Shown in pieces: positions 33,154-45,975 of a stretch of DNA of 64,000 nucleotides. Location: contig NZ_ATHI01000004.1 in the NCBI RefSeq assembly GCF_000422245.1, forward strand, positions 124,001 through 188,000, written 5' to 3'. Made by a program: the position numbers and the translations under genes. The DNA is from Alkalidesulfovibrio alkalitolerans DSM 16529 (GTDB taxonomy: Bacteria > Desulfobacterota > Desulfovibrionia > Desulfovibrionales > Desulfovibrionaceae). Numbering within the stretch: the stretch's first letter is position 1; each line of letters opens with the position of its first letter. The notes under the pieces are model-generated. The model saw only the letters and a program-made list of their open reading frames with translations, was not told where the DNA came from and did no database searches.

Positions 33154-33975
33154 TCAGGGAATCAGTTTTTCCGCGTCGCCGCGCAGGTCGAAGCCCAGGC
33201 TGCGTGCCAGAAGCTGCGGGTAGGAGACGACCGGCAGCCCCTGCCCGTCCTCCCCGGCTTGGCCCAGGCGTATCTGGCAGAAAGGGCAGACCACGCACAG
33301 AGCGTCCGCTCCAGCTTTGCGGGCGTCGTCGAGCTTGCTTTTGGCGATGACCGCCGAAGTGTCTTTGTCCGTGGCCATGATCGGCGCGCCGCAACAGTCG
33401 GCCTTGCGCCCCCAGTCGGCGGAGCGGGCGTCCACGGCCTGCACGAGCCGGTCGAGCACGGTGGGCTGGAAGGGATTGTCCAGACCCAGGACGTTGCTCG
33501 GCCTGAGGATGCGGCAGCCATAATGCAGCGCCAGATTCAGGCCCTTGGCGGGCTTTTGCACGGCCCTGCGCAGGGCATCCAGCCCCACGTCCTGCTCCAG
33601 CATCTCGAAGAAGTGCCGAACCTTGGCCGTGCCCGAGAACCTGAGGCCCTCCTTGCGCAGTGAATCGTTGATTCTCTCGGCCAGCGCGGCGTCGCGCGAG
33701 AGCATCCAGGCACAGTGCTTGAGCGTGCCGTAGCAGCAGTTGCACACGGTGACGATGGCCGCGTCGTGAGCCTCGGCCAGGGCCAGATTGCGGCCCGAGG
33801 CCAGGAGCCAGGCGTCCTGGTCCACGTTGCGCAGCGGGTAGCCGCAGCAGCCGAACTCCGTGATCTGCACGGTCGAAAGGCCAAGACCGGACATGACCGC
33901 GTCCGTGGCCAGCTCGTATTCGGGAAGGTTCAGGGCCGTGACGCAGCAGCGGAAAAGGGCGTATCGGGTGTTCAT
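33154..33975 (-). CDS. HdrB-like CCG-domain iron-sulfur protein
   Basis: This 273-residue protein holds two CCG domains, the noncubane 4Fe-4S cluster fold of HdrB. In the first, cysteines C10/C11, C43/C44 (FGCCGYP), C78 and C80/C81 (TVCNCCYG) fit the CX31-39CCX33-36CXXC pattern. The second has HYGCRILRP, ADCCGAP and CVVCPFC. Homologues bind or transfer electrons through the noncubane clusters in heterodisulfide reductase, QmoABC-like and DsrK proteins. Its start overlaps the stop of the membrane cytochrome/ferredoxin gene by four bases, so the two are coupled. It is divergent from the AprBA-like genes and probably part of the same electron pathway. Confidence 0.87.
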   Translation of the reverse strand: MNTRYALFRCCVTALNLPEYELATDAVMSGLGLSTVQITEFGCCGYPLRNVDQDAWLLASGRNLALAEAHDAAIVTVCNCCYGTLKHCAWMLSRDAALAERINDSLRKEGLRFSGTAKVRHFFEMLEQDVGLDALRRAVQKPAKGLNLALHYGCRILRPSNVLGLDNPFQPTVLDRLVQAVDARSADWGRKADCCGAPIMATDKDTSAVIAKSKLDDARKAGADALCVVCPFCQIRLGQAGEDGQGLPVVSYPQLLARSLGFDLRGDAEKLIP

Positions 33976-35708
33976 GCGTTTTCTCCGGTCTTGAGGCGGG
34001 CGAGGGCTGCGTGCTTGTGCGCATAGAGCACGTCGGCCACGGGCACGCCCTGCGGGCATTGTTCCTGGCACTGGTAGCAGCCCACGCAGGCCCAGAGCAT
34101 ACGGGACGAGGCCGCGATCTCGGGCACGCCCAGGATCGTGGCGTGGATGATCTGGTGGGGCAAAATTCCCAGTTCCTGCCGGGGGTTCTCGAAACAGTCC
34201 ATGATCGGGCACGACGAGGTGCACGTCCGGCAACTGAAGCAGGCGTTGAAGCCCGCCTGGTCGGGGAAGAACCTCTTCGCCGCTTCGGGCCGGGCGAGCA
34301 CGACCTCGGCCGTGGCCGCCTCGGCGAAATGTTCGAGCACGAGGGCTCGGGCGGCGTCGCCCGGCGCATTCGCGGCGTCGGCTCCACCGTCGCGGGCGCG
34401 CAACAGGTCGTGCAGGCGCAGTTGCGAGAGCACGTAGGGCTCGGCCGGTCCCAGGCGCAGCAGATCTTCGCGCGTGGCCGTCCAGATGTCCTGCAGGTCG
34501 ATGCCCACGGGGCAAACATCCGTGCAGCGGTGACAGTTGGTGCAGACCACCAAGCCCTCCAGCAGGGCCTTTCGTCTTTCGGGCGCGAGGTCTTGTCCGG
34601 CGGCCACGGCGCGCAAGGCCGAAAGCTTTTCCGAGGGCAGGATCAGGCTGTTGTGCAGTGCGTCGTCGGCGATGCCCACGGAGCAGCGCTCGCTGCACGC
34701 GCCGCAGCGTGTGCAGGCGTCCAACTCCATGACCCTGCGCGCGGCTGTGGCGGCCGGGGACGAGCCGCGCCCGGAAACCGAGGCCGCGACGAGGCTCACG
34801 GGGCTTGTCAGGGCGTGGAACATCTTGCCGAAAGGCAGCCAGGCCAGACCCGCGAAGGTGGCCAGGATGTGGATGTACCACAGGAAGGAGACCAGGGCCT
34901 TGCCGTCGGAATTCGCGGTGACGGGATAGGTCAACCAGGACGTGGCGTAACTGACGAAGGCCGACTGGCTCGGACTGTGGCACGAGACGCAGAACATGTC
35001 GTTCAGCTCGCGCCCTTCCTCGATCACCGCCGCGTCGAAGGGCTTTTTCAGCCTGGGCGAGATCAGGCCGTATTCGAGCACCCACAGGCTTTCCAGGCTC
35101 TCGATTTCCTTTTCGTCGGTCAGGATCGAGTAGTCCTCGACCATGCGCGTGAACTCTGACTGCGAGGCGATCTTCGCGCCCTTGAGCAAAAAGCCTGAGA
35201 CGAGGATGAGCGCCACGAGCGCGATGGTGGCCGTGTCCATGGACCGGGTCTTCAACCGGGGTTTTGGCATCACGAAGCGGCGGTACATGGCCATGCCCAC
35301 GCCCGCGAGGACCATGATTCCGGCGATCTCACGCAGATAGAGATAGGGATTGAGCGTGGACATGTAGCCGGGGAAGAGCGCCTGGCTGACCACGCTTTCC
35401 ATGGCGTGCACGACCACGAGGAACATGAAACCCCAGAAAATGAGCATGTGCATGGCCCAGCGGTAGCGGTCCCGGATGAAGGAGCGCCGCAGCAGCAGGG
35501 CGTCGAGGACCAGGGCCTTAAGGACGGCGACGATCCCGGCGGGTGAGAGCGAGCCGCCCGCGGCGCGCATAACGCCCGCGATACGCGGCCCAGGCCCGAT
35601 GGCCCGGTCGGCCTCGGTCAGCCCCTGCCGGAACCAGCCGCTCGCCTTGAACAGCACGCCTAGGGCGAAGATCGCCAGGGAAACGTAGAGTGTGACGCTA
35701 AAGAACAT
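33972..35708 (-). CDS. QmoC/HdrC-like membrane cytochrome b-ferredoxin subunit with c-type heme motif
   Basis: This 578-residue protein starts at ATG 35708; the GGAG upstream fits it better than the nearby ATG at 35714. The N-terminal ~300 residues have about six membrane segments with histidines placed for cytochrome b (RWAMHMLIFWG, VVHAMES, WYIHILATF, MFHALTS), like HdrE/NarI. Between segments, at residues 240-244, is CVSCH, a c-type heme attachment motif, likely periplasmic. Two ferredoxin modules follow: CTRCGACSERC with CTNCHRCTDVCPVG (~332-400), then CFSCRTCTSSCPIMDC and CVGCYQCQEQCPQG. It may exchange electrons between the quinone pool, a periplasmic heme and the cytoplasmic Fe-S proteins HdrB-like and QmoB-like. 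QmoC has cytochrome b and one HdrC module; the extra ferredoxin module and heme are unusual. Confidence 0.85.
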   Translation of the reverse strand: MFFSVTLYVSLAIFALGVLFKASGWFRQGLTEADRAIGPGPRIAGVMRAAGGSLSPAGIVAVLKALVLDALLLRRSFIRDRYRWAMHMLIFWGFMFLVVVHAMESVVSQALFPGYMSTLNPYLYLREIAGIMVLAGVGMAMYRRFVMPKPRLKTRSMDTATIALVALILVSGFLLKGAKIASQSEFTRMVEDYSILTDEKEIESLESLWVLEYGLISPRLKKPFDAAVIEEGRELNDMFCVSCHSPSQSAFVSYATSWLTYPVTANSDGKALVSFLWYIHILATFAGLAWLPFGKMFHALTSPVSLVAASVSGRGSSPAATAARRVMELDACTRCGACSERCSVGIADDALHNSLILPSEKLSALRAVAAGQDLAPERRKALLEGLVVCTNCHRCTDVCPVGIDLQDIWTATREDLLRLGPAEPYVLSQLRLHDLLRARDGGADAANAPGDAARALVLEHFAEAATAEVVLARPEAAKRFFPDQAGFNACFSCRTCTSSCPIMDCFENPRQELGILPHQIIHATILGVPEIAASSRMLWACVGCYQCQEQCPQGVPVADVLYAHKHAALARLKTGENA

Positions 35709-36072
35709 GGGCATTCTCCGGGTCGGCTCCGTCCGACGGTTTTCCGTTCATGGGGCCTGGGGCGTTTCGTCCCTGGCCGTTGAACGGCTTTCCGCGTCGG
35801 GGCGGAGCGGTTTCATCGTTGCCCATGTCTTAGGTGAAAAAAATTTCGCTGTTTATCGCCACCGCGATAGTACGAAAAGTTGGGGGAAAATATACCAGTG
35901 TCACCCTCGCTCAGGAAATCCAGCGCTAGGTCGCGCCGCAAGAGACATTCACGGCGGCGCGTGCGGGGGAGACGGTTCTTTCATGCCGCGCCTGACCGGA
36001 GATGAGGGTGAGTCAGGCTGCGTAACCCCCCTTGAGCGAAAGCAATCAAACGGCAAACCCAGGAGGTTGGTC
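35709..36072. promoter_or_regulatory. 364-base divergent control region with an inverted repeat
   Basis: This region separates the HdrB/QmoC-like operon (minus) from the AprBA/QmoB-like operon (plus). A perfect inverted repeat TATCGC (35854-35859) CACC GCGATA (35864-35869) lies in an AT-rich part and is flanked by TTTCG (35844-35848) and CGAAA (35873-35877). This is a likely operator for coordinated control, perhaps by the Crp/Fnr regulator downstream, although it lacks the Fnr or Crp consensus. The AGGAGG ribosome site for the AprA-like gene is at 36061-36066. Confidence 0.45.
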
Positions 36073-37812
36073 ATGGCCGAGGCGATTCCCAAAGACTTGA
36101 ATGAGGTCGTAACCGAAACCGTGGAGTGCGATCTTCTGATTATCGGCGGCGGCAACGCCGGCTGCTTCTCCGCCTACGAGGCCAGGAAGCTCAATCCCGA
36201 CATCAAGATCGTGATCATGGAAAAGGCCAACATCAAGCGTTCCGGCGCCTGCGCGGCGGGCATGGACGCCATCAACACCTACATCCCGACGTGGGACGGC
36301 AAGACTCCCGAGGATCTCGTGCGCTGGTCGCGCTCCCAGGTTGGCGGAGGCCCCCTGCGTGAGGATCTGGCGTTGTCCAACGCCCAGGAACTCAACCAGT
36401 GCGTCGAGGAACTCGGCGAGTGGGGCCTGCCCATCCTGCGCGAGGACGACGGCAAGCCCCAGTATCGCGGCGCGTGGGACATCTCGATCCACGGCGAGCA
36501 ACTGAAGCCCATCATGGCCGAGAAGGCCATGGAGGCCGCCATCGTCTACAACAGGGTCGCGGCCACCTCGCTGCTCATGGACGGCGAGCGCTGCGCGGGC
36601 GCGACCGGCTTCGGCATTCGCGACGGCAAATTCTACGTCTTCAAGGCCAAGGCCACCATCGTCTCCACCGGCGGCGCGTGCGGCCTGTACAAGTCCTACA
36701 CCTCGGACGTCACGGCCTCGCACCATCAGACGTGGATGTGCCCCTTCAACGTGGGCACCGGCTACGCCATCGGCCTGCGCGTGGGCGCCGAGTTTACCTC
36801 CATGGAACAGCGCTGGGTGGCCGCCCGCACCAAGGACTACTGTGGTCCCGTGGACACGGTCTCCGTGGGTTTTCAGGCCAAGATGATGAACGCCAAGGGC
36901 GAGTACTTCCTGAACACGCACTACGCGGACCAGGGCGGCGACAAGGCCCCCCGCTACATCCGGGCCAACGCTCCCATGGAGGAGTGGCGCGCCGGTCGCG
37001 GGCCGACCTTCATCGACACCACGCACATGGACGAGGAGACCTGTCACAGCATGCTGACGGACTACCTCAACGAGCGCCCGTCCTTCGTGCTCTACTTGGC
37101 GGCCAACGGCATCGATCCCACCAAGCAGCCCGTCGAGGTCTACGGCTCCGACCCCTACATCGTCGGCGGCCACACCGGCAGCGGCTTCTGGGTGGATATC
37201 GAGCGCATGACGACCGTTCCCGGCCTCTTCGCGGCGGGCGAGACGGCCGGCGGCAACCCCAACAAGTTCGTGGGCGGCTGCGCCGCCGAGGGCAAGCTGG
37301 CCGCGCGCGGCGCGCTCAAGGTCATCGCCGAGAAGGGCGATGTGAAGCTCGACGACGCCCAGGTGCAGGCCGAGAAGGCGCGCGTTTTCTCCCCCTTGTT
37401 CAAGGGCGAGGACTTCGACGGGCTGACCCCCGAGGAAGTCAAGGAGCGCCTGCAGCGCCTCATGGACGAGTACGCGGGCGGCACTTCGCAGTTCTACCGC
37501 GTCAACGAGGAGCAGCTCGACTACGCCCTTCGCCACATCCAGATCCTCAAGCAGCAGGTGGAGTTCATCCAGGTCAACACGCTGCACGACCTGATGCACG
37601 CCCACGAGGTGATGGAGCGCATCGAGGTGGCCGAGATCGTCTGTCACCATCTCAAGGGCCGCAAGGAGACCCGTTGGGCTGGCTGGCAGACCCGCACGGA
37701 CTACCCCGAGCGCGACGACGAAAACTTCAATTGCTTCGTCGAGTCCCGCAAGAATTTGGAGACCGGCGAGATCGAGGTTTTCACCAGGCCCTACGAACGG
37801 ATCGTTGACTAG
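36073..37812 (+). CDS. AprA-like FAD-dependent oxidoreductase (adenylylsulfate reductase alpha paralogue)
   Basis: This 579-residue flavoprotein starts at ATG 36073 after AGGAGG (six bases). The FAD site is CDLLIIGGGNAGCFSAYEAR. Downstream blocks RSGACAAGMDAINTYI, LREDLALSNAQELNQCVEELGEWGLPI, IVSTGGACGLYKS and GLFAAGETAGGNPNKFVGGCAAEG show the AprA/fumarate reductase fold and are closer to AprA than to SdhA. It is shorter than AprA (about 640-665 residues), so loops of the true enzyme are missing, and there is no sat gene beside it. The substrate is therefore probably not APS. It is followed by an AprB-like ferredoxin (65-base gap) and a QmoB-like protein, as in aprBA-qmoABC. It may reduce or oxidise an imported organic acid or sulfur compound. 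Confidence 0.85.
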   Translation: MAEAIPKDLNEVVTETVECDLLIIGGGNAGCFSAYEARKLNPDIKIVIMEKANIKRSGACAAGMDAINTYIPTWDGKTPEDLVRWSRSQVGGGPLREDLALSNAQELNQCVEELGEWGLPILREDDGKPQYRGAWDISIHGEQLKPIMAEKAMEAAIVYNRVAATSLLMDGERCAGATGFGIRDGKFYVFKAKATIVSTGGACGLYKSYTSDVTASHHQTWMCPFNVGTGYAIGLRVGAEFTSMEQRWVAARTKDYCGPVDTVSVGFQAKMMNAKGEYFLNTHYADQGGDKAPRYIRANAPMEEWRAGRGPTFIDTTHMDEETCHSMLTDYLNERPSFVLYLAANGIDPTKQPVEVYGSDPYIVGGHTGSGFWVDIERMTTVPGLFAAGETAGGNPNKFVGGCAAEGKLAARGALKVIAEKGDVKLDDAQVQAEKARVFSPLFKGEDFDGLTPEEVKERLQRLMDEYAGGTSQFYRVNEEQLDYALRHIQILKQQVEFIQVNTLHDLMHAHEVMERIEVAEIVCHHLKGRKETRWAGWQTRTDYPERDDENFNCFVESRKNLETGEIEVFTRPYERIVD

Positions 37813-37877: not shown

Positions 37878-38201
37878 ATGCCGCCGAAGGTAGATTGGCA
37901 AAAATGCGACGGCTGCAAGGCTCTGGACGAGCCCCTGTGCGAACAGGTCTGTCCGGGGAACCTGATGACGCTCAACAAGGACAAGAAGGCCTACTGCCGC
38001 CCCTTGCGGCACTGCTGGGATTGCATGTCCTGCACCAAGGTCTGTCCGGTGGGCGCCATCGAGACGCGCATCCCCTTCCAGATCGGCTACCACGGGGCGA
38101 AGCTGATTCCCATGATGGGAACGAACAGCATCACCTGGACCTGTCAGGACATCAACGGAAAGGTCACCCGTTACCGCTTCAAAAACCGGATTGAGGACTA
38201 A
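37878..38201 (+). CDS. AprB-like two-cluster ferredoxin
   Basis: This 107-residue protein has two 4Fe-4S motifs. The first is KCDGCKALDEPLCEQVCPGNL; the second is CWDCMSCTKVCPVGAIE. They are arranged as in AprB, and the following GTNSITWTCQDINGKVTRYRF matches AprB's C-terminal β-segment. AprB is about 150 residues; the long C-terminal tail that wraps around AprA is missing here. It would carry electrons between the AprA-like FAD and the QmoB-like protein. The ATG follows AGGAGG at nine bases, and its TAA overlaps the ATG of the QmoB-like gene (TAATG), so translation is coupled. Confidence 0.88.
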   Translation: MPPKVDWQKCDGCKALDEPLCEQVCPGNLMTLNKDKKAYCRPLRHCWDCMSCTKVCPVGAIETRIPFQIGYHGAKLIPMMGTNSITWTCQDINGKVTRYRFKNRIED

Positions 38202-40681
38202 TGGCAGCTCAACCAATGAAGATCGCCGTTTTCTTCAATGACCAGGGCGGGCGCCTGAGCGCCGCCCTGGACATGGAGAAACTCATGTCGGTCGCGGCCA
38301 AGGCCAAGGGCGTGGCCAAGACCGACATTGTCGGGGACTCCTTCCTGGACGCCTTCCCGGCCCTGGCCGGGGAGGTGGTTCCGGGGGAAGGAATCGACCG
38401 GGTCCTTTTCGTGGGCGGATTCACCGACGCCCAGAAGAAGGCCTGCGCCCGGACCCTGGTCGATGCGGGGATCAACCCCTACATGGTGGAATGGTTCGAT
38501 CCGACGGATCAGGGGCTGCTCAACACGGCCCTGGACCAGACCGTGCGGGACAAGAAGGCGGCGGTGATGCTCAAGATGGTCCTGGCCAGGGCCAGGAGCC
38601 TTGAGCCGCTTGCGCCCGAAACCCTGCCCGCCAACGAGAGGGTTTTGATCGTCGGCGGAGGCGTCTCCGGCATCCATGCGGCGGCTTCATTGACCAGGCT
38701 GGGCAAGCCAGTGACATTGGTGGAGAAGAACTCGGGCCTGGGCGGCAAGGTCGCCCAACTGGCCCGGTTCTATCCCCGCATGTGCGATCCCAGGTGCGGG
38801 CTCGAACACGTCCTTTTCGGACTCGCCGACTCGGATCTGCTCGACCTGCGCACCCTGGCCAAGGTCGAAAAGCTTGGCGGCGGCCCAGGCCGCTTCGAGG
38901 CCTCGATCCGCCAGGCTCCCCGTTACGTGGACGAGCGCTGCGACGGTTGTGGCGTCTGCCAGACCGTGTGTCCGATTGAGCTTGGCGATGCCGTGGCACC
39001 AGTCGAGTGCGAGCTGCCCGTCGAGGCGTTTTCGCCAGTCCAGATGCCCATCGAGGCCGAGGAGACCGTAGCGCCGTCCGAGATTTCGGAGCAGGTCGCG
39101 GCCGAGGCGACGACGCCTGTCGAGCGCCCCTCTCGTTTCATGCGCAAGGCGATCCACCCGGCCCTGCCCATGGCGTATCCGATCCAGTTCGTGGTGGAGC
39201 GCCGCCACTGTCCGCCCGATTGCCGCGAGTGCGAAAAGATTTGCCCGCGCCAGGCCGTGCGTCTGGAGCAGGAGGAGAAGGTCGAGAGCGTGGAGGCGGG
39301 CGCGGTGCTCGTGACCACGGGCTTCGACCTCTATCCCATGGAGCGGCTTGAGGAATACGGCTACGGCAGGCATCCGGGCGTCATCGACAACCTGGAGATG
39401 GAGCGCGTCCTTGCCCTGGACGACGCGCACATCGCGCGCCTGGACAAGAGCTTTGCCGCCGGTCTTACGTCGGTCGGCTTCATCCAGTGCGCGGGCAGCC
39501 GTGACGAACGGCATCTGCCGTACTGTTCCTCGGTCTGCTGCTCCGCGACCATGAAGCAGATACTGGAACTCAAGCGCATCAATCCCGAGGTCGCCTGCTA
39601 CGTCTATTTCATGCACATCCGCACGCCGGGCTTCGACGAAGGCATGTACCGCAAGGCGCGCGAGGCCGGGACCGTGTTCATCCGCGAGCGCCCCGCCAAG
39701 GTGGACGTCGATCCGGATTCCGGAAAGATCGTCGTCGAGAGCCTGGACGTGGCCCTGGGCCGCAAGGTGCGCGCCGAACTCGACCTGCTCGTGCTGGCCG
39801 GGGGCATGTGCCCCTCGCAGGGTACGACGGAGGCGGGCAAGGTGTTGGGCCTGCCGACCAACGAGCACGGTTTCTTCGAGACCCACAGGCAGTGCTACCC
39901 CGCCGAGTCCCAGCGGCCCGGCATCTACGTGGGCGGTTGCGCGCGCGAGCCCATGGACGTTGCGCAATCCATCGAATCCGGAGCCAAGGCGGCCCTGGAG
40001 GCCCTGGGCTTCCTTGGCGCGGGCATCCGGGTGGAGCCCACCTATCCGACCTTCAACGACAAGAAATGCGATCAGTGCGGGCGCTGCGTGGAGGAGTGTC
40101 CCTTCGCCGTCCTGACGTACAACGAAAAGAACATCCCGGTGCCTGACCTGGCCAAGTGCCGCCAGTGCGGCAACTGTATGGGCATCTGTCCCAAGACCGC
40201 CGTGGATCTGAAGCACCGGACCATCAAGCAGTATGCGGGACAGGTCGAGGTCGTGGGCGAGAACACGTCCTTCCTGCCCAAGAGCGAGCCCATCGTTCTG
40301 GCCTTCCTGTGCGAGAACGACGCTTGGCTCGCGGCCCGCGAGGCCCAGGCCCAGGGGCGCGTGCCCGCAAACGTCGTGGCTCTCAAGGTGCCCTGCGCGG
40401 GAGCCTTGAACAACGCCCTGATCGCCGACGCGCTCTCCTTGGGCGTGGACGCGGTCTTCATCGGTGCCTGTCCGGACGAGACTTGCCACTACGTGAAGGG
40501 CAACCAGCTCATCCGCAAGCGCCACGACGATCTCACGGACAAGTTGAAGAAGATGTCCATGGACGTGGAGCGAGTCGTCTTCGCGGGGCTTGGTCCCAGG
40601 GACGTCGATGCGTACGTCCGCGCGATCGACGATTGCATCGCCCTTCTCAAGGAGAAGGGCCCCAACCCCTTCAAGATGTAA
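38201..40681 (+). CDS. QmoB-like HdrA/MvhD iron-sulfur flavoprotein
   Basis: This 826-residue protein follows the HdrA plan. An N-terminal ~140-residue domain is followed by FAD binding (VLIVGGGVSGIHAAASL, ~149-165), the HdrA block MCDPRCGLEHV (~194-204), ferredoxin-like CDGCGVCQTVCP (~247-258), a second cluster region with C337, C341, C344 and C348, a two-cluster ferredoxin (CDQCGRCVEECPF, CRQCGNCMGICPK, ~622-672), and an MvhD-type domain (~695-815; VPCAGALNNALI, GACPDETCHYVKG). This resembles QmoB, which accepts electrons at the membrane-side complex. The N-terminal domain (KIAVFFNDQGG) lacks the cysteines of canonical HdrA. A variable acidic, proline-rich linker occupies ~262-318. It is the third gene of the AprBA-like operon. 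Confidence 0.86.
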   Translation: MAAQPMKIAVFFNDQGGRLSAALDMEKLMSVAAKAKGVAKTDIVGDSFLDAFPALAGEVVPGEGIDRVLFVGGFTDAQKKACARTLVDAGINPYMVEWFDPTDQGLLNTALDQTVRDKKAAVMLKMVLARARSLEPLAPETLPANERVLIVGGGVSGIHAAASLTRLGKPVTLVEKNSGLGGKVAQLARFYPRMCDPRCGLEHVLFGLADSDLLDLRTLAKVEKLGGGPGRFEASIRQAPRYVDERCDGCGVCQTVCPIELGDAVAPVECELPVEAFSPVQMPIEAEETVAPSEISEQVAAEATTPVERPSRFMRKAIHPALPMAYPIQFVVERRHCPPDCRECEKICPRQAVRLEQEEKVESVEAGAVLVTTGFDLYPMERLEEYGYGRHPGVIDNLEMERVLALDDAHIARLDKSFAAGLTSVGFIQCAGSRDERHLPYCSSVCCSATMKQILELKRINPEVACYVYFMHIRTPGFDEGMYRKAREAGTVFIRERPAKVDVDPDSGKIVVESLDVALGRKVRAELDLLVLAGGMCPSQGTTEAGKVLGLPTNEHGFFETHRQCYPAESQRPGIYVGGCAREPMDVAQSIESGAKAALEALGFLGAGIRVEPTYPTFNDKKCDQCGRCVEECPFAVLTYNEKNIPVPDLAKCRQCGNCMGICPKTAVDLKHRTIKQYAGQVEVVGENTSFLPKSEPIVLAFLCENDAWLAAREAQAQGRVPANVVALKVPCAGALNNALIADALSLGVDAVFIGACPDETCHYVKGNQLIRKRHDDLTDKLKKMSMDVERVVFAGLGPRDVDAYVRAIDDCIALLKEKGPNPFKM

Positions 40682-40742: not shown

Positions 40743-40842
40743 TGGAAGCCGCCTCGGCGCGCCGCCTTTACGGAAAACGACCAGAAAAGAAACTGTCGGC
40801 GTGGTATCGTGAATCGCAATGTCTAACCGAAGGAGAGGGAGT

Positions 40843-41802
40843 ATGCGTTCTGCCATCGTAACCCTGTTTCTCTGTGTCTTCCTGGCCGGGATGTGCCTTG
40901 CGCAGCCCGTCCAGGCGTCCAATTATCCCGAGCGCCCGATCAAGATGCTGACCATGACCGGGCCGGGAGCCCAGATCGACCTTCTGACCCGCGCCCTGTC
41001 CGACGCCCTGAGCGCCGAACTGGGCAAGCCCGTCCTGGTGACCAACATGCCCGGCGGCTCCCACGGCAGCGTGATGGCCGCGGAGCTCAAGGCTTCCGAC
41101 CCCGACGGCTATACCCTGGCCGTTTCGGCCACGGCGGCCTTCACCTACTCGCCCCACTACGTCCAGACCCGCTACACGTTCGACGACTTCGAGTATCTCT
41201 CCATGCTCGGCCTGAACCAGAGCGGCATCGTCTGCGCGCCCAACCGTCCCTGGACCAACTTGAAGGAAGCCTTCGAGTGGGCGCGCAATGAAAAGCGCGG
41301 TCTGACCTACATGTTTCAGGGCTCCGACGACCGCGACGTGATGCAGCGCATCGCCGCCAAGGAAGGCGTCAGCCTGTCCCTCATGCCGAGCACCGGCGGC
41401 CCGTCCATCATCTCCGCCGTCATGGGCGGCCACGTGGACCTTGGGCATCTGGGCGCGATCCTGTTCGAGTACGTCAAGGCCAACCGACTGAAGCTCCTGG
41501 CCGCCACCACCCCGCAGCGCCTCACCCAGCTTCAGGACGTGCCCACCCTGCGCGAACAGGGCTGGGACGAGTCCGTCGAAATGTTCGTGGTGCTGGTCGC
41601 GCCCAAGGGGCTGCCCGCGCCGGTTCTCGATCGTCTGAACCAGGCCATCGACAAGGTCGCCGCGAACGAGAAGTTCCGCACCTTCATCACCGACGAACTG
41701 ATCATGGCACCCGTGACCTTCGGCCGCGAGGCCGCCCTGTCTTATATGAAGGAAGCCAACGACCGCTTCGGCAAGCAGGCGGCGGAAGCGAAGAAGCAGT
41801 AG
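40843..41802 (+). CDS. TctC-like periplasmic solute-binding protein
   Basis: This 319-residue protein starts at ATG 40843 after GGAGAGGGAG, with a signal peptide (VTLFLCVFLAGMCLAQPVQA). The mature protein has the TctC/Bug signature NYPERPIKMLTMTGPGAQIDLLTRAL and NMPGGSHGSVMAAELKASDPDGYTL, and the mid-domain GHVDLGHLGA. TctC captures tricarboxylates, dicarboxylates or aromatic acids in the periplasm for the TctAB membrane pair encoded next. It is 161 bases from the QmoB-like gene, suggesting that the redox genes and transporter serve one substrate. A stable hairpin follows its stop. Confidence 0.9.
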   Translation: MRSAIVTLFLCVFLAGMCLAQPVQASNYPERPIKMLTMTGPGAQIDLLTRALSDALSAELGKPVLVTNMPGGSHGSVMAAELKASDPDGYTLAVSATAAFTYSPHYVQTRYTFDDFEYLSMLGLNQSGIVCAPNRPWTNLKEAFEWARNEKRGLTYMFQGSDDRDVMQRIAAKEGVSLSLMPSTGGPSIISAVMGGHVDLGHLGAILFEYVKANRLKLLAATTPQRLTQLQDVPTLREQGWDESVEMFVVLVAPKGLPAPVLDRLNQAIDKVAANEKFRTFITDELIMAPVTFGREAALSYMKEANDRFGKQAAEAKKQ

Positions 41803-41855
41803 TCCATCCGCGAGGGGGACGTCGGGGATCGCGAAAGGCGAACGTCCGACGAGGA

Positions 41856-41903
41856 TTGCGGTCTGCCGGGTGCGCTTGGAATGGTGTGCCCGGCAGACTG
41901 CAA
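41856..41903 (+). terminator. stem-loop after tctC (partial terminator or mRNA stabiliser)
   Basis: A 15-bp stem with one G-T wobble pairs 41856-41870 with 41889-41903 around an 18-base loop. No T run follows (ATAATAC), so it is more likely a 3' stabiliser or leaky terminator. Such hairpins often raise binding-protein expression relative to the membrane subunits. Confidence 0.5.
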
Positions 41904-42048
41904 ATAATACGCAAGCGATTGTTCGTGAATGAATTGATACGACATTGACAATGTTGAAAGAATGATTTTGACATGCAGTGTCCCGTTCGTTCAATGCAGG
42001 TTGTTGTGTGTATGCGCAAATTGAAAAAATGTTTTTTCATAAATTTGA

Positions 42049-42073
42049 CATATCAATACGGCCTTTTGATATG
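42049..42073. promoter_or_regulatory. 25-base perfect palindromic operator upstream of tctBA
   Basis: CATATCAA (42049-42056) and TTGATATG (42066-42073) are exact inverted repeats with a 9-base spacer. They begin within a TTGACA -35 element (42045-42050) and cover the -10 position, so a bound protein would block transcription. The source could be the Crp/Fnr-type protein encoded downstream or an unlinked regulator. Confidence 0.55.
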
Positions 42074-42112
42074 TTTTCGCATGGCAAATGACGGGATTCA
42101 ATGGAGATGGGG

Positions 42113-42610
42113 ATGACAAGCAGAACAAGAGACAACCTGATTTACGGTGGGATCGCACTGGGAAGCGTGGCCTTCCTGACGTGGATCATCCCGGCGTACA
42201 CCCCCGAGTATCCGGGGTACGGCGTTTCCGCGGCGCTTTTGCCCAACGTCGCCGTAAGCATCATTCTGGTGCTTTCGCTCCTGGCGCTGGCACAAAATTT
42301 TCTCGCCTATCTCGTGCTCAAGAAGAAGAACCTCCTCGAACCGGAAAAGCCGACGGAAGAGCCCCAGGAAAACGGCTACCAGGCGAAAAAGGTGCACTTG
42401 GTGCATCTCGCCAGGTTTATGATCCCCTGTCTTCTTGTCATGCCCGCCATGCATTGGCTTGGTTACGTTCCGGCCGGAATCCTGTTTCTGCTGGCGATCC
42501 AGTATATCGGCCTGCGGCCCAAGCCGCTGACGGGGTTGCTCGTGGCGACCATCCCCGTGGGCGTCATGTACGTGTTGATGGTCTACGGGCTTGGTGTGCC
42601 CCTGCCGTAA
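42113..42610 (+). CDS. TctB-like small membrane subunit of TTT transporter
   Basis: This 165-residue protein has about four hydrophobic segments: IYGGIALGSVAFLTWIIPAY, LLPNVAVSIILVLSLLAL, FMIPCLLVMPAMHWLGYVPA and GLLVATIPVGVMYVLMVYG. A charged loop lies in the middle. This is the TctB (DUF1468) topology of tripartite tricarboxylate transporters. The ATG at 42113 has GGAG six bases upstream; an earlier ATG at 42101 overlaps that site. It is followed 28 bases later by tctA. The sequence of small TctB proteins is weakly conserved, so the call leans on topology and gene order. Confidence 0.82.
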   Translation: MTSRTRDNLIYGGIALGSVAFLTWIIPAYTPEYPGYGVSAALLPNVAVSIILVLSLLALAQNFLAYLVLKKKNLLEPEKPTEEPQENGYQAKKVHLVHLARFMIPCLLVMPAMHWLGYVPAGILFLLAIQYIGLRPKPLTGLLVATIPVGVMYVLMVYGLGVPLP

Positions 42611-42638: not shown

Positions 42639-44141
42639 ATGATCGAGTTCATCATCGCAGGGGCCCTGGACGCCATACAGCCCGTGAACCTGCTTTTCGT
42701 CTTCATCGGGGTCGCATTCGGCGTGCTGGCCGGGGCCATTCCCGGCGTCAACGGCCCCATGGCCATCGCCTTGTGCATCCCGCTTTCCTATTACATGTCG
42801 CCGGTGGCGGCCATCGGCTTCCTCGTCGGCCTGAACAAGGGCGCGTTCTACGGCGGGGCCATCTCCGGCATCCTGCTGAACACGCCGGGCACGCCGGAGG
42901 CGGCGGCGACTTCATGGGACGGCAACCCGCTGGCGCGACAAGGCAAAGGCGAAAAAGCCCTGCGCATGGCCCTGTATTCGTCGGTCTCGGGCGACGCCTT
43001 CGCGACGCTGGTGCTCATCCTCGTGGCGGCTCCCCTCGCGGCCGTGGCCCTGTACATGGGGCCGCCGGAAATCTTCGCCCTGATCTGCCTGGCCATGACC
43101 ATCATCGCGGGCCTGGGCACCAAATCCCTCACGCGCGGGCTCATCGCCGCCGCGTTGGGCATCCTCGTCGGCACCGTGGGCATGGAGCCCGTGTCCGCCC
43201 TGCCCAGGTTGACCTTCGGTCTGTACCAACTCGAACGCGGCATCTCGCTGATTCCCGTGGGCATCGGCATGCTGGCCTTCTCCGAAATCATCATCCAGAT
43301 GGAGCGCTTCATCAAAATCGGTGGCCATGAGTGCACCCTGGCCTTCTCCGACAAGCCTGAGGATCGCTTCATCTCCTGGGCCGAATACCGCAAGAGTCTG
43401 AAGACGATCCTGATGTCGTCGTGCTACGGCACGGCCGTGGGCGCGTTGCCCGGTCTGGGCGCTCCCGTGGCCTCGTTCTTCGCCTATGACCAGGCGAAGA
43501 AGCGCTCCAAGAACCCCGAGGAGTTCGGCACCGGCAAGCTCGACGGCATCGCGGCCGCGGAGTCGGCCAACAGCGCGGTCGTGGCGTCGAGTCTCATCCC
43601 GCTGTTCACCCTGGGCATCCCCGGCAACGTGGCCGCGGCCCTGCTCATCGGTGCGTTCGTCATCCACGGCATGATTCCCGGCCCGCTCATGTTCGAGCAG
43701 AACGCCCAGTTCATCTATTCCATCTTCGGCAGCCTCATCATCGCCAACATCTTCCTGCTCGGCGTGGGCCGCGTCGGCCTCAGGGCGTCGTGCCGGGTCG
43801 TGCAGACACCGGCCTCCATCCTGTACCCGGTCATCATCTTCACCTGCATCATGGGTTCCTATCTGGCCGCGTACTCGACCTTCGACGTCAAGCTGATGCT
43901 TTTCTTCGCCTTCCTGGCCTACTTCATGCGCAAGTTCGACTTCTCGTTCATCTCGTTCATAATCGGCTTCATCCTGGCCCCGATCTGGGAGACCGCGCTG
44001 CAACAGGTGGTCATCTCCTCGCAGTTCAATCCGTACATGTTCTTCTCCAGGCCGGTGGCCATGATCCTGATGGCCCTCACGTTCTACATCGTCTTCAAGA
44101 CGACGTGGGGTTCCTTCAAGAAGAAGGCGGCCGTGGGATGA
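42639..44141 (+). CDS. TctA-like large membrane subunit of TTT transporter
   Basis: This 500-residue protein has about ten to twelve membrane segments. It shows TctA signatures: FGVLAGAIPGVNGPMAIALCIPLSY, YGGAISGILLNTPGTPEAAATSWDG and the second-half repeat GAPVASFFAYDQAKK with AAAESANSAVVASSLIPLFTLGIPGN. It carries the translocation path for the organic acid delivered by TctC, driven by a proton or sodium gradient. The ATG follows CCGGAG. Its stop overlaps the next gene's ATG (ATGA), so the binding-protein-like gene is translated with it. Confidence 0.95.
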   Translation: MIEFIIAGALDAIQPVNLLFVFIGVAFGVLAGAIPGVNGPMAIALCIPLSYYMSPVAAIGFLVGLNKGAFYGGAISGILLNTPGTPEAAATSWDGNPLARQGKGEKALRMALYSSVSGDAFATLVLILVAAPLAAVALYMGPPEIFALICLAMTIIAGLGTKSLTRGLIAAALGILVGTVGMEPVSALPRLTFGLYQLERGISLIPVGIGMLAFSEIIIQMERFIKIGGHECTLAFSDKPEDRFISWAEYRKSLKTILMSSCYGTAVGALPGLGAPVASFFAYDQAKKRSKNPEEFGTGKLDGIAAAESANSAVVASSLIPLFTLGIPGNVAAALLIGAFVIHGMIPGPLMFEQNAQFIYSIFGSLIIANIFLLGVGRVGLRASCRVVQTPASILYPVIIFTCIMGSYLAAYSTFDVKLMLFFAFLAYFMRKFDFSFISFIIGFILAPIWETALQQVVISSQFNPYMFFSRPVAMILMALTFYIVFKTTWGSFKKKAAVG

Positions 44142-45064
44142 CGCCGAGCGCAGACCCGACCCTCCGCCGAGGATTTCGTCTCGACTGGCCCGAGGAGCGG
44201 GCGGGCCGGTCGGGCGACGGGGTGCGTTGGCTGCAGCCGGAATCGAACATCTGTCTGGACTTCCACGGCGACCCCGCGCGGGCCCGGCTCGCGGTCTTTT
44301 CCGACGGCAACCATCACATGGCGCTTTTGCAGTGCCTGGACTGGTTCGCGCGCGATAACGGCGACCTGCCCGTCTTCTACGCCACCACGCCGCCGGGCGT
44401 GGTGGCCGCCATGCTCCGAAGCGGCGGACTGCACCTCGGCAACCTGACCATAAGCGCCACGCCCCATGTCTTCATCTCGCCGCCTGAGATCCTGGACGGT
44501 CTCGTGGCGGACGGGTTCATGCGCGGTCATATCCCGTTCGTTCGCAACCAGGGCAGCGTCATTTTGACGCAAAAGGGCAACCCCAAGGGTATCGTCGGGA
44601 TCGCGGACCTCGCGCGCGAGGACGTCCGCCTCTTCCTCTCCAACCCAAAGACGGAGAAGGCCAGCTTTGCGGCCTATCACGCGACCCTTCGGGCCATGGC
44701 CCCGGAGGCCCTGGCAGCAAGCGGTTTTCCCGACGACAAGATCGCGCGCGGCGAGGTTCTTTTCGGCGAAAGCATCCATCATCGCGAAGCGCCCCAGGCG
44801 GTGGCCGACGGGAAGGCCGACGCGGCCATGGTCTTTTATCATCTCGCCCTGCGCTACCTGCGCATCTTCCCGGACGTCTTCGACGCGGTTCCCCTCGGCG
44901 GAAGCGTGGAGCGGCCCGACCCGGCGTCGGGCAACGTCGTCTCCCTAACCCACGCGGGGCTCGTGGGGGACGGCGGAAAGTGGGGCGCGAGGCTTCTTTC
45001 CTTTCTGTCGTCGGCAACGGCGCACGACATTTACAGACGCCACGGGTTGCTGCCCATGGATTGA
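44138..45064 (+). CDS. periplasmic-binding-like protein lacking a signal peptide
   Basis: This 308-residue protein overlaps tctA by four bases. It has no N-terminal hydrophobic segment: it begins MTPSADPTLRRGFRLDWPEE, then VRWLQPESNICLDFHGDPARARLAVFSDGNHHMALLQ. The fold pattern (FYATTPPGVV, LILDGL-like helix regions, NPKTEKASFAAYH, GKADAAMVFYHLALRY) resembles type 2 solute-binding proteins such as ModA-like molybdate or anion binders. Without a signal it probably acts in the cytoplasm, for example sensing the imported substrate, or the signal is non-classical. I do not recognise a characterised homologue. Tight coupling to tctA suggests it belongs to the transporter or redox system. Confidence 0.6.
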   Translation: MTPSADPTLRRGFRLDWPEERAGRSGDGVRWLQPESNICLDFHGDPARARLAVFSDGNHHMALLQCLDWFARDNGDLPVFYATTPPGVVAAMLRSGGLHLGNLTISATPHVFISPPEILDGLVADGFMRGHIPFVRNQGSVILTQKGNPKGIVGIADLAREDVRLFLSNPKTEKASFAAYHATLRAMAPEALAASGFPDDKIARGEVLFGESIHHREAPQAVADGKADAAMVFYHLALRYLRIFPDVFDAVPLGGSVERPDPASGNVVSLTHAGLVGDGGKWGARLLSFLSSATAHDIYRRHGLLPMD

Positions 45065-45282
45065 AGCGCTTGCGTGAATTCGGTCAGTCCGGGGTCGTGC
45101 TGGGCGTGGCCAGGCGCGCGCGGCGGGCGAAAGAAACGAAGACGCGGCCGCAAGGCCGCGCGAGCATGAAGTGAACGCGAGGGGCGCGACGCTCTGGGCC
45201 GTCACGACGGCCTGGGGCGTCGCTTTGCCTTTGTCAGACATCTGGGGTAGATTATATGTATTCGATCACAAGGAGCGACCCG

Positions 45283-45975
45283 GTGGCCACGCACGACTGG
45301 CATCTGGGCGAGGACGATTTTTTCGCGGACCTTGCAGCCGAACGGGAGGCTTTCCTGCGCCTTTCGCGGCGGCGGGAACTGGCCAAGGGTGACATGATCT
45401 TTTTCGAGGACGATGCGGGGGAGTCGTGCTTCTATCTGGAGCACGGACTCATCAAGATTTTCCGCATCGCCGCCTCGGGCAAGGAGCCTATTTTCTTTCT
45501 GCGCCATGGCGGGGAGATGTTCGGCTTGGCCGAGGTCATGGAGTCCGAGACGCGCAAGGCCAACGCCCAGGCGCTGTCCCCGTGCGTGCTGCACGAGATC
45601 GACAAGCGCGAATTCGAGAAGTTCCTGGCCGAGAACTTCCGCGCCACGCGAAAGGTCATCCGCATCCTGGGCCGCCGTTTGCGCTACCTGGGCGAGCAAC
45701 TCGGCAATCTCATGTCCTGCGATGTGGGAACTCGGCTTGCCAAGCTCCTGGTCTACATCGCCCACGACGAACTTTCCGCCGAGGATTCCTGGCGCAGGCC
45801 CGTGATCTTGCCCGTGGCCCTGACCCAGGAACAGATGGCTGCCATGACGGGATCGTGCCAGCAGACCGTGAGCGAATTCCTCAAGCGATTCCAGGAAGAG
45901 GGTTTGGTGCGCGTGGGCCGCAAGAAGATCACCATTCTCGACCCGCTGAAGCTTTTGGAGAAGGCCGAAAAATAA
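45283..45975 (+). CDS. Crp/Fnr-family transcriptional regulator
   Basis: This 230-residue protein has an N-terminal cyclic-nucleotide-type β-barrel (FFEDDAGESCFYLEHGLIKIFR, FLRHGGEMFGLAEVM), a dimerisation helix and a C-terminal winged HTH (LTQEQMAAMTGSCQQTVSEFLKRFQEEGLV). The Fnr four-cysteine cluster motif is absent from the N-terminus, so it is not a classical oxygen-sensing Fnr. The GTG at 45283 follows AGGAG at seven bases; an ATG at 45256 has no clear ribosome site. It sits 218 bases after the binding-protein-like gene and is a good candidate regulator of the redox and transport locus. Effector unknown. Confidence 0.88.
   Translation: MATHDWHLGEDDFFADLAAEREAFLRLSRRRELAKGDMIFFEDDAGESCFYLEHGLIKIFRIAASGKEPIFFLRHGGEMFGLAEVMESETRKANAQALSPCVLHEIDKREFEKFLAENFRATRKVIRILGRRLRYLGEQLGNLMSCDVGTRLAKLLVYIAHDELSAEDSWRRPVILPVALTQEQMAAMTGSCQQTVSEFLKRFQEEGLVRVGRKKITILDPLKLLEKAEK

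Follow-up and report, generated by a model that had tools for sequence, protein, structure and literature searches.

A binding-protein-like protein of Alkalidesulfovibrio alkalitolerans, probably cytoplasmic, whose family is encoded beside interchangeable anion importers

The genome of Alkalidesulfovibrio alkalitolerans DSM 16529 contains, within a stretch of 64,000 nucleotides (contig NZ_ATHI01000004.1, positions 124,001 to 188,000 of the forward strand; the whole stretch is called the window below), the genes tctC, tctB and tctA of a tripartite tricarboxylate transporter (TTT), followed by a gene of a 308-residue solute-binding-protein-like (SBP-like) protein and by crp. Binding proteins are normally defined by their location outside the membrane, and the earlier note on this DNA, made from the letters of the sequence, had found no export signal in this one and proposed it as a candidate for a new part of TTT systems. 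What might a protein of this kind do inside the cell? The answer that we favour, tentatively and at slightly less than an even chance, is that it is an intracellular receptor or carrier for an imported anion, has a fold like that of ModA and Sbp, and acts downstream of the importer.

The SBP-like gene is real and its coordinates are exact. It opens with an ATG at 44138, its stop codon ends at 45064, and its start overlaps the stop of tctA (ending at 44141) by four nucleotides, ATGA, as had been described before. In comparison with the orthologue at locus L090, which comes from another genome in this family (69.5% protein identity), first, second and third codon positions differ in 79, 63 and 152 of 306 codons, respectively; third positions thus change about twice as often, which indicates that the reading frame is under protein-level constraint.

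Fold, location and ligand loops of the SBP-like protein

The SBP-like protein matches the Pfam family SBP_bac_11 (PF13531) over residues 77-304, with an E value of 4.9e-19 that passes the cut-off. The AlphaFold2 model, built from an alignment of 78 sequences (pLDDT 92.9, pTM 0.89), had PEB3 and the molybdate-binding protein ModA as its best Foldseek matches, while the best VIA match was SubI (Z 22.2), with ModA and the sulfate-binding protein Sbp at Z 20-22, over residues 47-308. FbpA and MctA were also found, and, judging by the titles of the fold matches listed, most of them are binding proteins or constructs derived from binding proteins. A ModA/Sbp-like type 2 fold is therefore confidently predicted by the model, in agreement with the resemblance to type 2 solute-binding proteins proposed earlier.

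With the periplasmic proteins of ModA/Sbp type (SBP_bac_11, PEB3) it would share the two-domain type 2 fold and the conserved ligand loops, with 10-18% of residues identical in those structural alignments that are listed. Unlike them, it lacks a signal-like N terminus, its loops are charged and histidine-rich, and residues 1-46 form an added N-terminal segment with conserved LxWPxE and DFHGDP. Models of TctA, TctB and TctC gave no match to it at E<=1, and the Pfam scan found no fused regulatory domain. Some cytoplasmic enzymes do have the type 2 fold of binding proteins, namely MqnA/MqnD and THI5, and MqnA and THI5 belong to Pfam families other than SBP_bac_11; no MqnA/MqnD- or THI5-type family of Pfam or NCBIfam was listed at E<=1 for the SBP-like protein.

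Location was assessed with a hydropathy measure and not with SignalP: mean hydropathy was taken over 11-residue stretches of the first 35 residues, and the highest value was scored. The homologues were the best 80 of 86 relatives found in one scan of genome contigs, the records of which include the culturable carriers Thiobacillus thioparus and Desulfospira joergensenii, and 77 of them were scored, three (L010, L079 and L081) being dropped as short. The value was -0.51 for the protein of the window and had a median of 0.26 and a maximum of 1.5 among the homologues, in contrast to a median of 2.59 and a minimum of 1.42 for the cluster of periplasmic TctC proteins (first 45 residues; 3.05 for TctC of the window). 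Homologue starts had been set beside the LxWP motif, so the upstream in-frame region was also inspected. Fewer than 20 in-frame codons separate the upstream stop (or contig end) from LxWP in 47 of the 77 homologues; among the other 30, an upstream start giving a stretch of more than 1.8 was seen only in L059 (2.32), the signal state of which is ambiguous, and in L031 (1.85), which is borderline. For the protein of the window, a signal peptide hidden behind an upstream start was ruled out, and a twin-arginine (Tat) signal was rejected as well, since RRGFRL at the N terminus is not followed by a hydrophobic stretch. It is thus likely that the SBP-like protein, a relative of binding proteins, resides in the cytoplasm, and the earlier statement on the missing export signal extends to its orthologues, with L059 ambiguous.

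Signal-like N termini, recognised by eye, occur in distant paralogues (L137, L138 and L140-L143, about 26-33% identity), and all eight distant paralogues, including L094 and L095, which by eye have no such N terminus, retain the loop motifs GN, TxPP, PxxE and HR. Since the signal-like paralogues keep these motifs, the SBP-like family appears to be a signal-less branch of a larger group. The signal-bearing L137, L138 and L143 are placed within the tree, where they have a long branch, and the tree tells neither loss nor gain of the signal. The two distant signal-less relatives lie at 9865-10704 of L094 (30% identity) and 9859-10686 of L095 (26%); the former is located between kinase-like and response-regulator-like genes (by eye), which suggests a sensory use of the fold. 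Distant paralogues were also found in 23 plasmid records, two of which were examined (L144 and L145, from Paraburkholderia fungorum and Acetobacter ascendens): both carry DsrE and cytochrome c genes next to the paralogue, and L144 also TauE, DsbC and TlpA.

Thirty-two alignment columns are invariant in all 78 SBP-like sequences, although the homologues are only 33-59% identical to the protein of the window. Of the 27 invariant residues within 47-308, 21 lie in five loops that would hold the ligand (SDGNHHM, TTPP, SNPxTEKAS, IHHREAP and YHLALR); the loops were drawn after the conservation had been seen, so this enrichment is descriptive. Among the invariant residues are D41, H43, D56, H59, H60, E173, H215, R216, E217, H235 and R242. 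In a profile alignment to the sulfate-binding protein 1sbp, E173 is placed at Ser130 and H215 at Ala173, both of which we take to be sulfate contacts. That Glu, Asp and His take the place of neutral contacts would argue against a bare tetrahedral oxyanion; the pocket may rather accept a metal, alone or in complex with an anion, or a larger anion, or it may form a catalytic site. A metal or metal-anion complex might be held by the invariant D56, H59, H60, E173, H215, E217 and H235.

Importers, companion genes and carriers

Many of the 80 loci are cut off by contig ends; 34 of them, called well-flanked here, have a flank of 6 kb or more on each side. Neighbours were counted by tblastn within 10 kb, because the picker of open reading frames (ORFs) misses genes opposite a longer ORF. 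Clustered ORFs revealed three recurrent companions: a 795-residue DUF3604-like protein, a Crp/Fnr regulator and an importer. The importers belong to three classes, TctABC, DASS (Na_sulph_symp) and NitT/TauT-type ATP-binding cassette (ABC) systems. An anion importer is encoded near 29 of the 34 well-flanked loci (13 with DASS only, 12 with TTT only, three with ABC and one with both TTT and DASS). NitT/TauT-type genes with a TauA-like binding protein were found near five of all 80 loci, as against the TTT next to the gene in the window. The 52 labelled rows of a quickly built tree (26 TTT, 21 DASS and 5 ABC; two more labelled rows fell outside the tree and were left out) require at least eight changes of importer type. 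The simplest reading is that one ligand is served by differing importers. When TctC, the SsuA-like protein and DASS were compared with the PDB, the matches indicated the class and no ligand.

The earlier note had advised a search for homologues linked to tctA. In six loci (L003, L004, L005, L010, L060 and L072), as well as in the window and in L090, the next gene behind tctA is the SBP-like gene, in the same orientation; by the tblastn rule tctA was found in 23 of the 80 loci, confirming five of these six. One SBP-like copy from a related genome (L091, 8933-9868) is adjoined by nitrogenase-like genes (by eye), and no importer is present in the fetched stretch.

The DUF3604-like gene was detected near 27 of the 34 well-flanked loci (47 of 80 overall) and the crp gene near 25 (40 overall). 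The DUF3604-like protein (L031, 8948-11335, and 40 further clustered loci) has no signal-like start (by eye), its members are 63-82% identical to the L031 copy, and 233 gap-free columns are invariant in an alignment of 35 sequences. As a lead, a short weak DUF3604 match together with motifs seen by eye would make it a PHP-type hydrolase. Its AlphaFold2 model reached a pLDDT of 76 and is weak in the presumed metal loops. Its fold could not be assigned with Foldseek, in which macroglobulins, complement C3 and beta-glucuronidases lead among the matches listed at an uninformative TM score of 0.12-0.15, and a sequence search of the PDB returned nothing at E<=10.

Co-occurrence was counted in 369 genomes, which represent the class of a record labelled Thiobacillus denitrificans (G150, itself included) and are not a random sample of bacteria. 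Carriers were accepted at E <1e-85, weaker matches (1e-30 to 1e-60) being left out as paralogues. The SBP-like protein is present in 16 genomes and the DUF3604-like protein (E 0) in 18, with 15 containing both (Fisher p 7e-23). A DUF3604-like match at E<=1e-60 was found in 34 of 55 carriers examined, G133 having only a distant one (4.9e-82). No DUF3604-like match was obtained in the genome of the window.

AprB is encoded in 107 of the 369 genomes, comprising 11 of the 16 carriers and 96 of the 353 others (p 0.0009). Fifty carrier genomes from the scan that gave the 80 loci were queried with the AprA-like protein of the window, and 40 of them encode a homologue at E<=1e-40; 37 of the best matches are at least 36% identical, and three, at 32-33%, are perhaps other flavoproteins. 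The majority of these homologues are presumably AprA of the ordinary kind. Sulfur dissimilation is thus over-represented among the carriers, which are not confined to it.

A proposed intracellular receptor and its alternatives

In the mechanism that we favour, an importer (TTT here, DASS or ABC elsewhere) would bring an anion into the cytoplasm, where the SBP-like protein might bind it, or the product first formed from it, in its interdomain cleft and then either pass the ligand to a catabolic enzyme or report its level. The receiving enzyme could be the DUF3604-like protein elsewhere and, in the window, perhaps a complex resembling adenosine 5'-phosphosulfate (APS) reductase, the genes of which precede the TTT genes (Table 1). 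That the SBP-like protein binds the imported compound we infer from the above. The data suggest that this compound is a sulfur-containing anion, none of the clues being proof: they are the metabolism of the carriers, the AprA-like enzyme, the sulfur genes at the two plasmid paralogues, the SsuA-like binding protein that accompanies the ABC importers, and the existence of a sulfolactate TTT, named slcHFG in passages of a review on TTT systems (PMC5812351).

Several observations speak against a receptor of this kind. The DUF3604-like protein is found without the SBP-like protein in three of its 18 genomes, and 21 of the 55 carriers (including G000, G012, G120 and G121) have no DUF3604-like match at E<=1e-60, most of these being relatives of the window or organisms with Desulfo- names; many carriers are incomplete metagenome assemblies. 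Five of the 34 well-flanked loci (L014, L015, L018, L029 and L035) have no detected importer nearby. The AprA-like gene occurs at E<=1e-130 in 16 of 119 related genomes, 14 of which have no SBP-like protein, only the genome of the window and G012 carrying both; and in six of eight such SBP-less operons fetched an importer is present nevertheless. In addition, the very high conservation of the SBP-like protein would fit an enzyme as well.

An enzyme on the type 2 fold that would convert the imported compound at a metal or acid-base site formed by the invariant histidines and acidic residues is rather unlikely in our estimate, and it is the alternative that survives best. It accords with the absence of a signal-like N terminus, with the 32 invariant residues in sequences so divergent, and with the carriers and loci just listed that have no DUF3604-like protein or importer, while the fold matches listed, mostly binding proteins by title, speak against it; the loop motifs kept by eight distant paralogues, six of them signal-like, fit binding as well.

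The protein might also act as a ligand-sensing regulator, in which case binding of the incoming anion would be reported to the Crp/Fnr protein, to a histidine kinase or to the importer, but this is improbable. The frequency of crp near the well-flanked loci, a histidine-kinase-like cluster named by eye in seven loci, and the position of the signal-less paralogue of L094 agree with such a role. However, in the window crp lies 191 nucleotides downstream of the SBP-like gene, beyond a terminator-like hairpin, the eight SBP-less operons all keep a crp gene in genomes that have no SBP-like protein, and no regulatory domain is fused to it. Of the roles suggested earlier, that of a cytoplasmic substrate sensor may apply to a protein that is signal-less, presumably cytoplasmic and genetically tied to an importer; that of a co-regulator of Crp is a weak proposal, which draws on the neighbourhood of crp and has the hairpin against it.

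A fourth, TTT-specific subunit on the inner side of TctA, as the four-nucleotide overlap and the eight loci with the gene directly 3' of tctA might indicate, is hardly credible and was rejected, since the same family stands beside DASS and ABC importers and a TTT operon (L170) with AprA-like genes, whose TctA and TctC are 73% and 60% identical to family members, has no SBP-like gene, its genome (G041) having no SBP-like match at E<=1e-30. The proposal of a new part of TTT systems is accordingly not supported, DASS being about as frequent as TTT at these loci and the gene being missing from related importer operons. Tripartite tricarboxylate transporters have three subunits according to passages of the review cited above (PMC5812351). 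The gene in the window adjoins a full TTT with its own TctC (PF03401), a family to which the SBP-like protein does not belong.

The fold, the Pfam family and cytosolic binding-protein-like proteins are known. Passages of one study describe cytosolic single-domain proteins with binding-protein Pfam matches and alternative functions, about 1% of the retrieved sequences being predicted as cytosolic (PMC9602780); the SBP-like family is not named in the passages on them. In the search listings of the open-licence literature, which leaves most subscription papers outside, and in the passages cited here, no description of the family, the DUF3604-like partner or the module was found; one paper of that literature mentions DUF3604. 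The SBP-like gene, the interchangeable anion importers, the DUF3604-like protein and the regulator together point to an undescribed uptake-and-use system. A bolder version, which we regard as doubtful, sees the SBP-like protein as the receptor or enzyme, located in the cytosol, of an undescribed module with which sulfur-metabolising bacteria would break down an anion. TTT, DASS and SsuA-like ABC importers, which are unrelated to one another, would be swapped around an intracellular core. This core would consist of the histidine-rich SBP-fold protein, the 795-residue DUF3604-like protein, presumed to be a hydrolase, and, in certain sulfate reducers, a flavoenzyme resembling APS reductase that, with its HdrA/QmoB-like partners, would have been redirected to a sulfo compound other than a nucleotide. 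A broad, apparently intracellular family with a near-unchanging pocket and three unrelated importer types offers a handle on an anion of many sulfur-metabolising bacteria, and its ligand could also open the DUF3604-like family and the AprA-like enzyme to study.

The reductase-like cluster and other features of the window

Table 1. Features of the window around the SBP-like gene
Feature	Coordinates	Strand	Basis
AprA-like flavoprotein (APS/PAPS-reductase alpha-like)	36073..37812	+	PF00890/PF02910; start is the methionine of MAEAIP
AprB-like ferredoxin (APS-reductase beta-like), 107 residues	37878..38201	+	Fer4; APS-reductase_C matched weakly, under the cut-off
HdrA/QmoB-like flavin and iron-sulfur protein	38201..40681	+	FlpD, Fer4, Pyr_redox_2; name inferred from domains
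tctC, periplasmic TTT binding protein, hydrophobic N terminus	40819..41802	+	PF03401, E 1.2e-34; hydropathy
Perfect 9-nucleotide inverted repeat upstream of tctB, possible operator	42048..42074	.
tctB, small TTT membrane subunit	42101..42610	+	PF07331, E 1.4e-10
tctA, large TTT membrane subunit	42639..44141	+	PF01970, E 4.7e-136
SBP-like protein (cytoplasmic solute-binding-protein-like), 308 residues	44138..45064	+	ORF, SBP_bac_11, homologues in 80 loci, model, fold matches
Terminator-like hairpin between the SBP-like gene and crp	45186..45223	+	17-pair stem, T-rich tail; consensus match only
Crp/Fnr-type regulator	45256..45975	+	PF00027 and PF13545

Terminator-like sites number eight in the region against 4.2 expected from shuffles. 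The tctC-tctB gap (41803-42100) is 300 nucleotides long, AT-rich towards tctB, and contains a 15-nucleotide hairpin at 41856-41903; tctB, tctA and the SBP-like gene may have a separate promoter. The inverted repeat at 42048-42074 was rejected as a conserved Crp operator, its pattern being absent from the L090 stretch and from six other operon gaps searched.

The AprA-like protein of the window is closest to 3'-phosphoadenosine 5'-phosphosulfate (PAPS) reductase and dissimilatory APS reductase, its best solved relative being the PAPS reductase of Methanothermococcus thermolithotrophicus (8a8o, E 6.5e-142), followed by AprA (1jnr). Unlike these enzymes, the cluster of the window combines a short beta subunit (107 residues) with an HdrA/QmoB-like partner, which is kept in L090 and L004, and an importer. 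It is distinct from an ordinary AprB encoded elsewhere in the same genome (G000, C30:108297). According to passages of one paper, glutamine alpha145 of the A. fulgidus enzyme would clash with PAPS in APS reductases (PMC10322725); the AprA-like protein of the window has Asp at this position, where the PAPS reductase has Ser, and its nucleotide site may therefore be unlike that of either enzyme.

The eight SBP-less operons, fetched from the fourteen, all have AprB-like and Crp genes adjoining (by tblastn). Five contain a DASS gene whose product is 65-71% identical to the DASS of SBP-like loci (L164, L165, L168, L169 and L171), L170 carries a TTT, and for L166 and L167 tblastn detected no importer within the fetched stretch. 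This suggests that the importer makes up a unit with the AprAB-like enzyme that is able to do without the SBP-like protein, which argues against the latter as a transporter subunit. In G168, neighbouring stretches of one contig encode SBP-like, DUF3604-like, two Crp, Cache-domain-like and DASS proteins as well as AprA-like, AprB-like, HdrA/QmoB-like and two Hdr-like ones.

Divergent Hdr-like genes (by eye) adjoin the AprA-like gene of the window at 33154-35714 on the minus strand, the larger one having a counterpart in L090 (46.5% identity). In L173 and L175, too, Hdr-like genes are found with the AprA-, AprB- and HdrA/QmoB-like trio.

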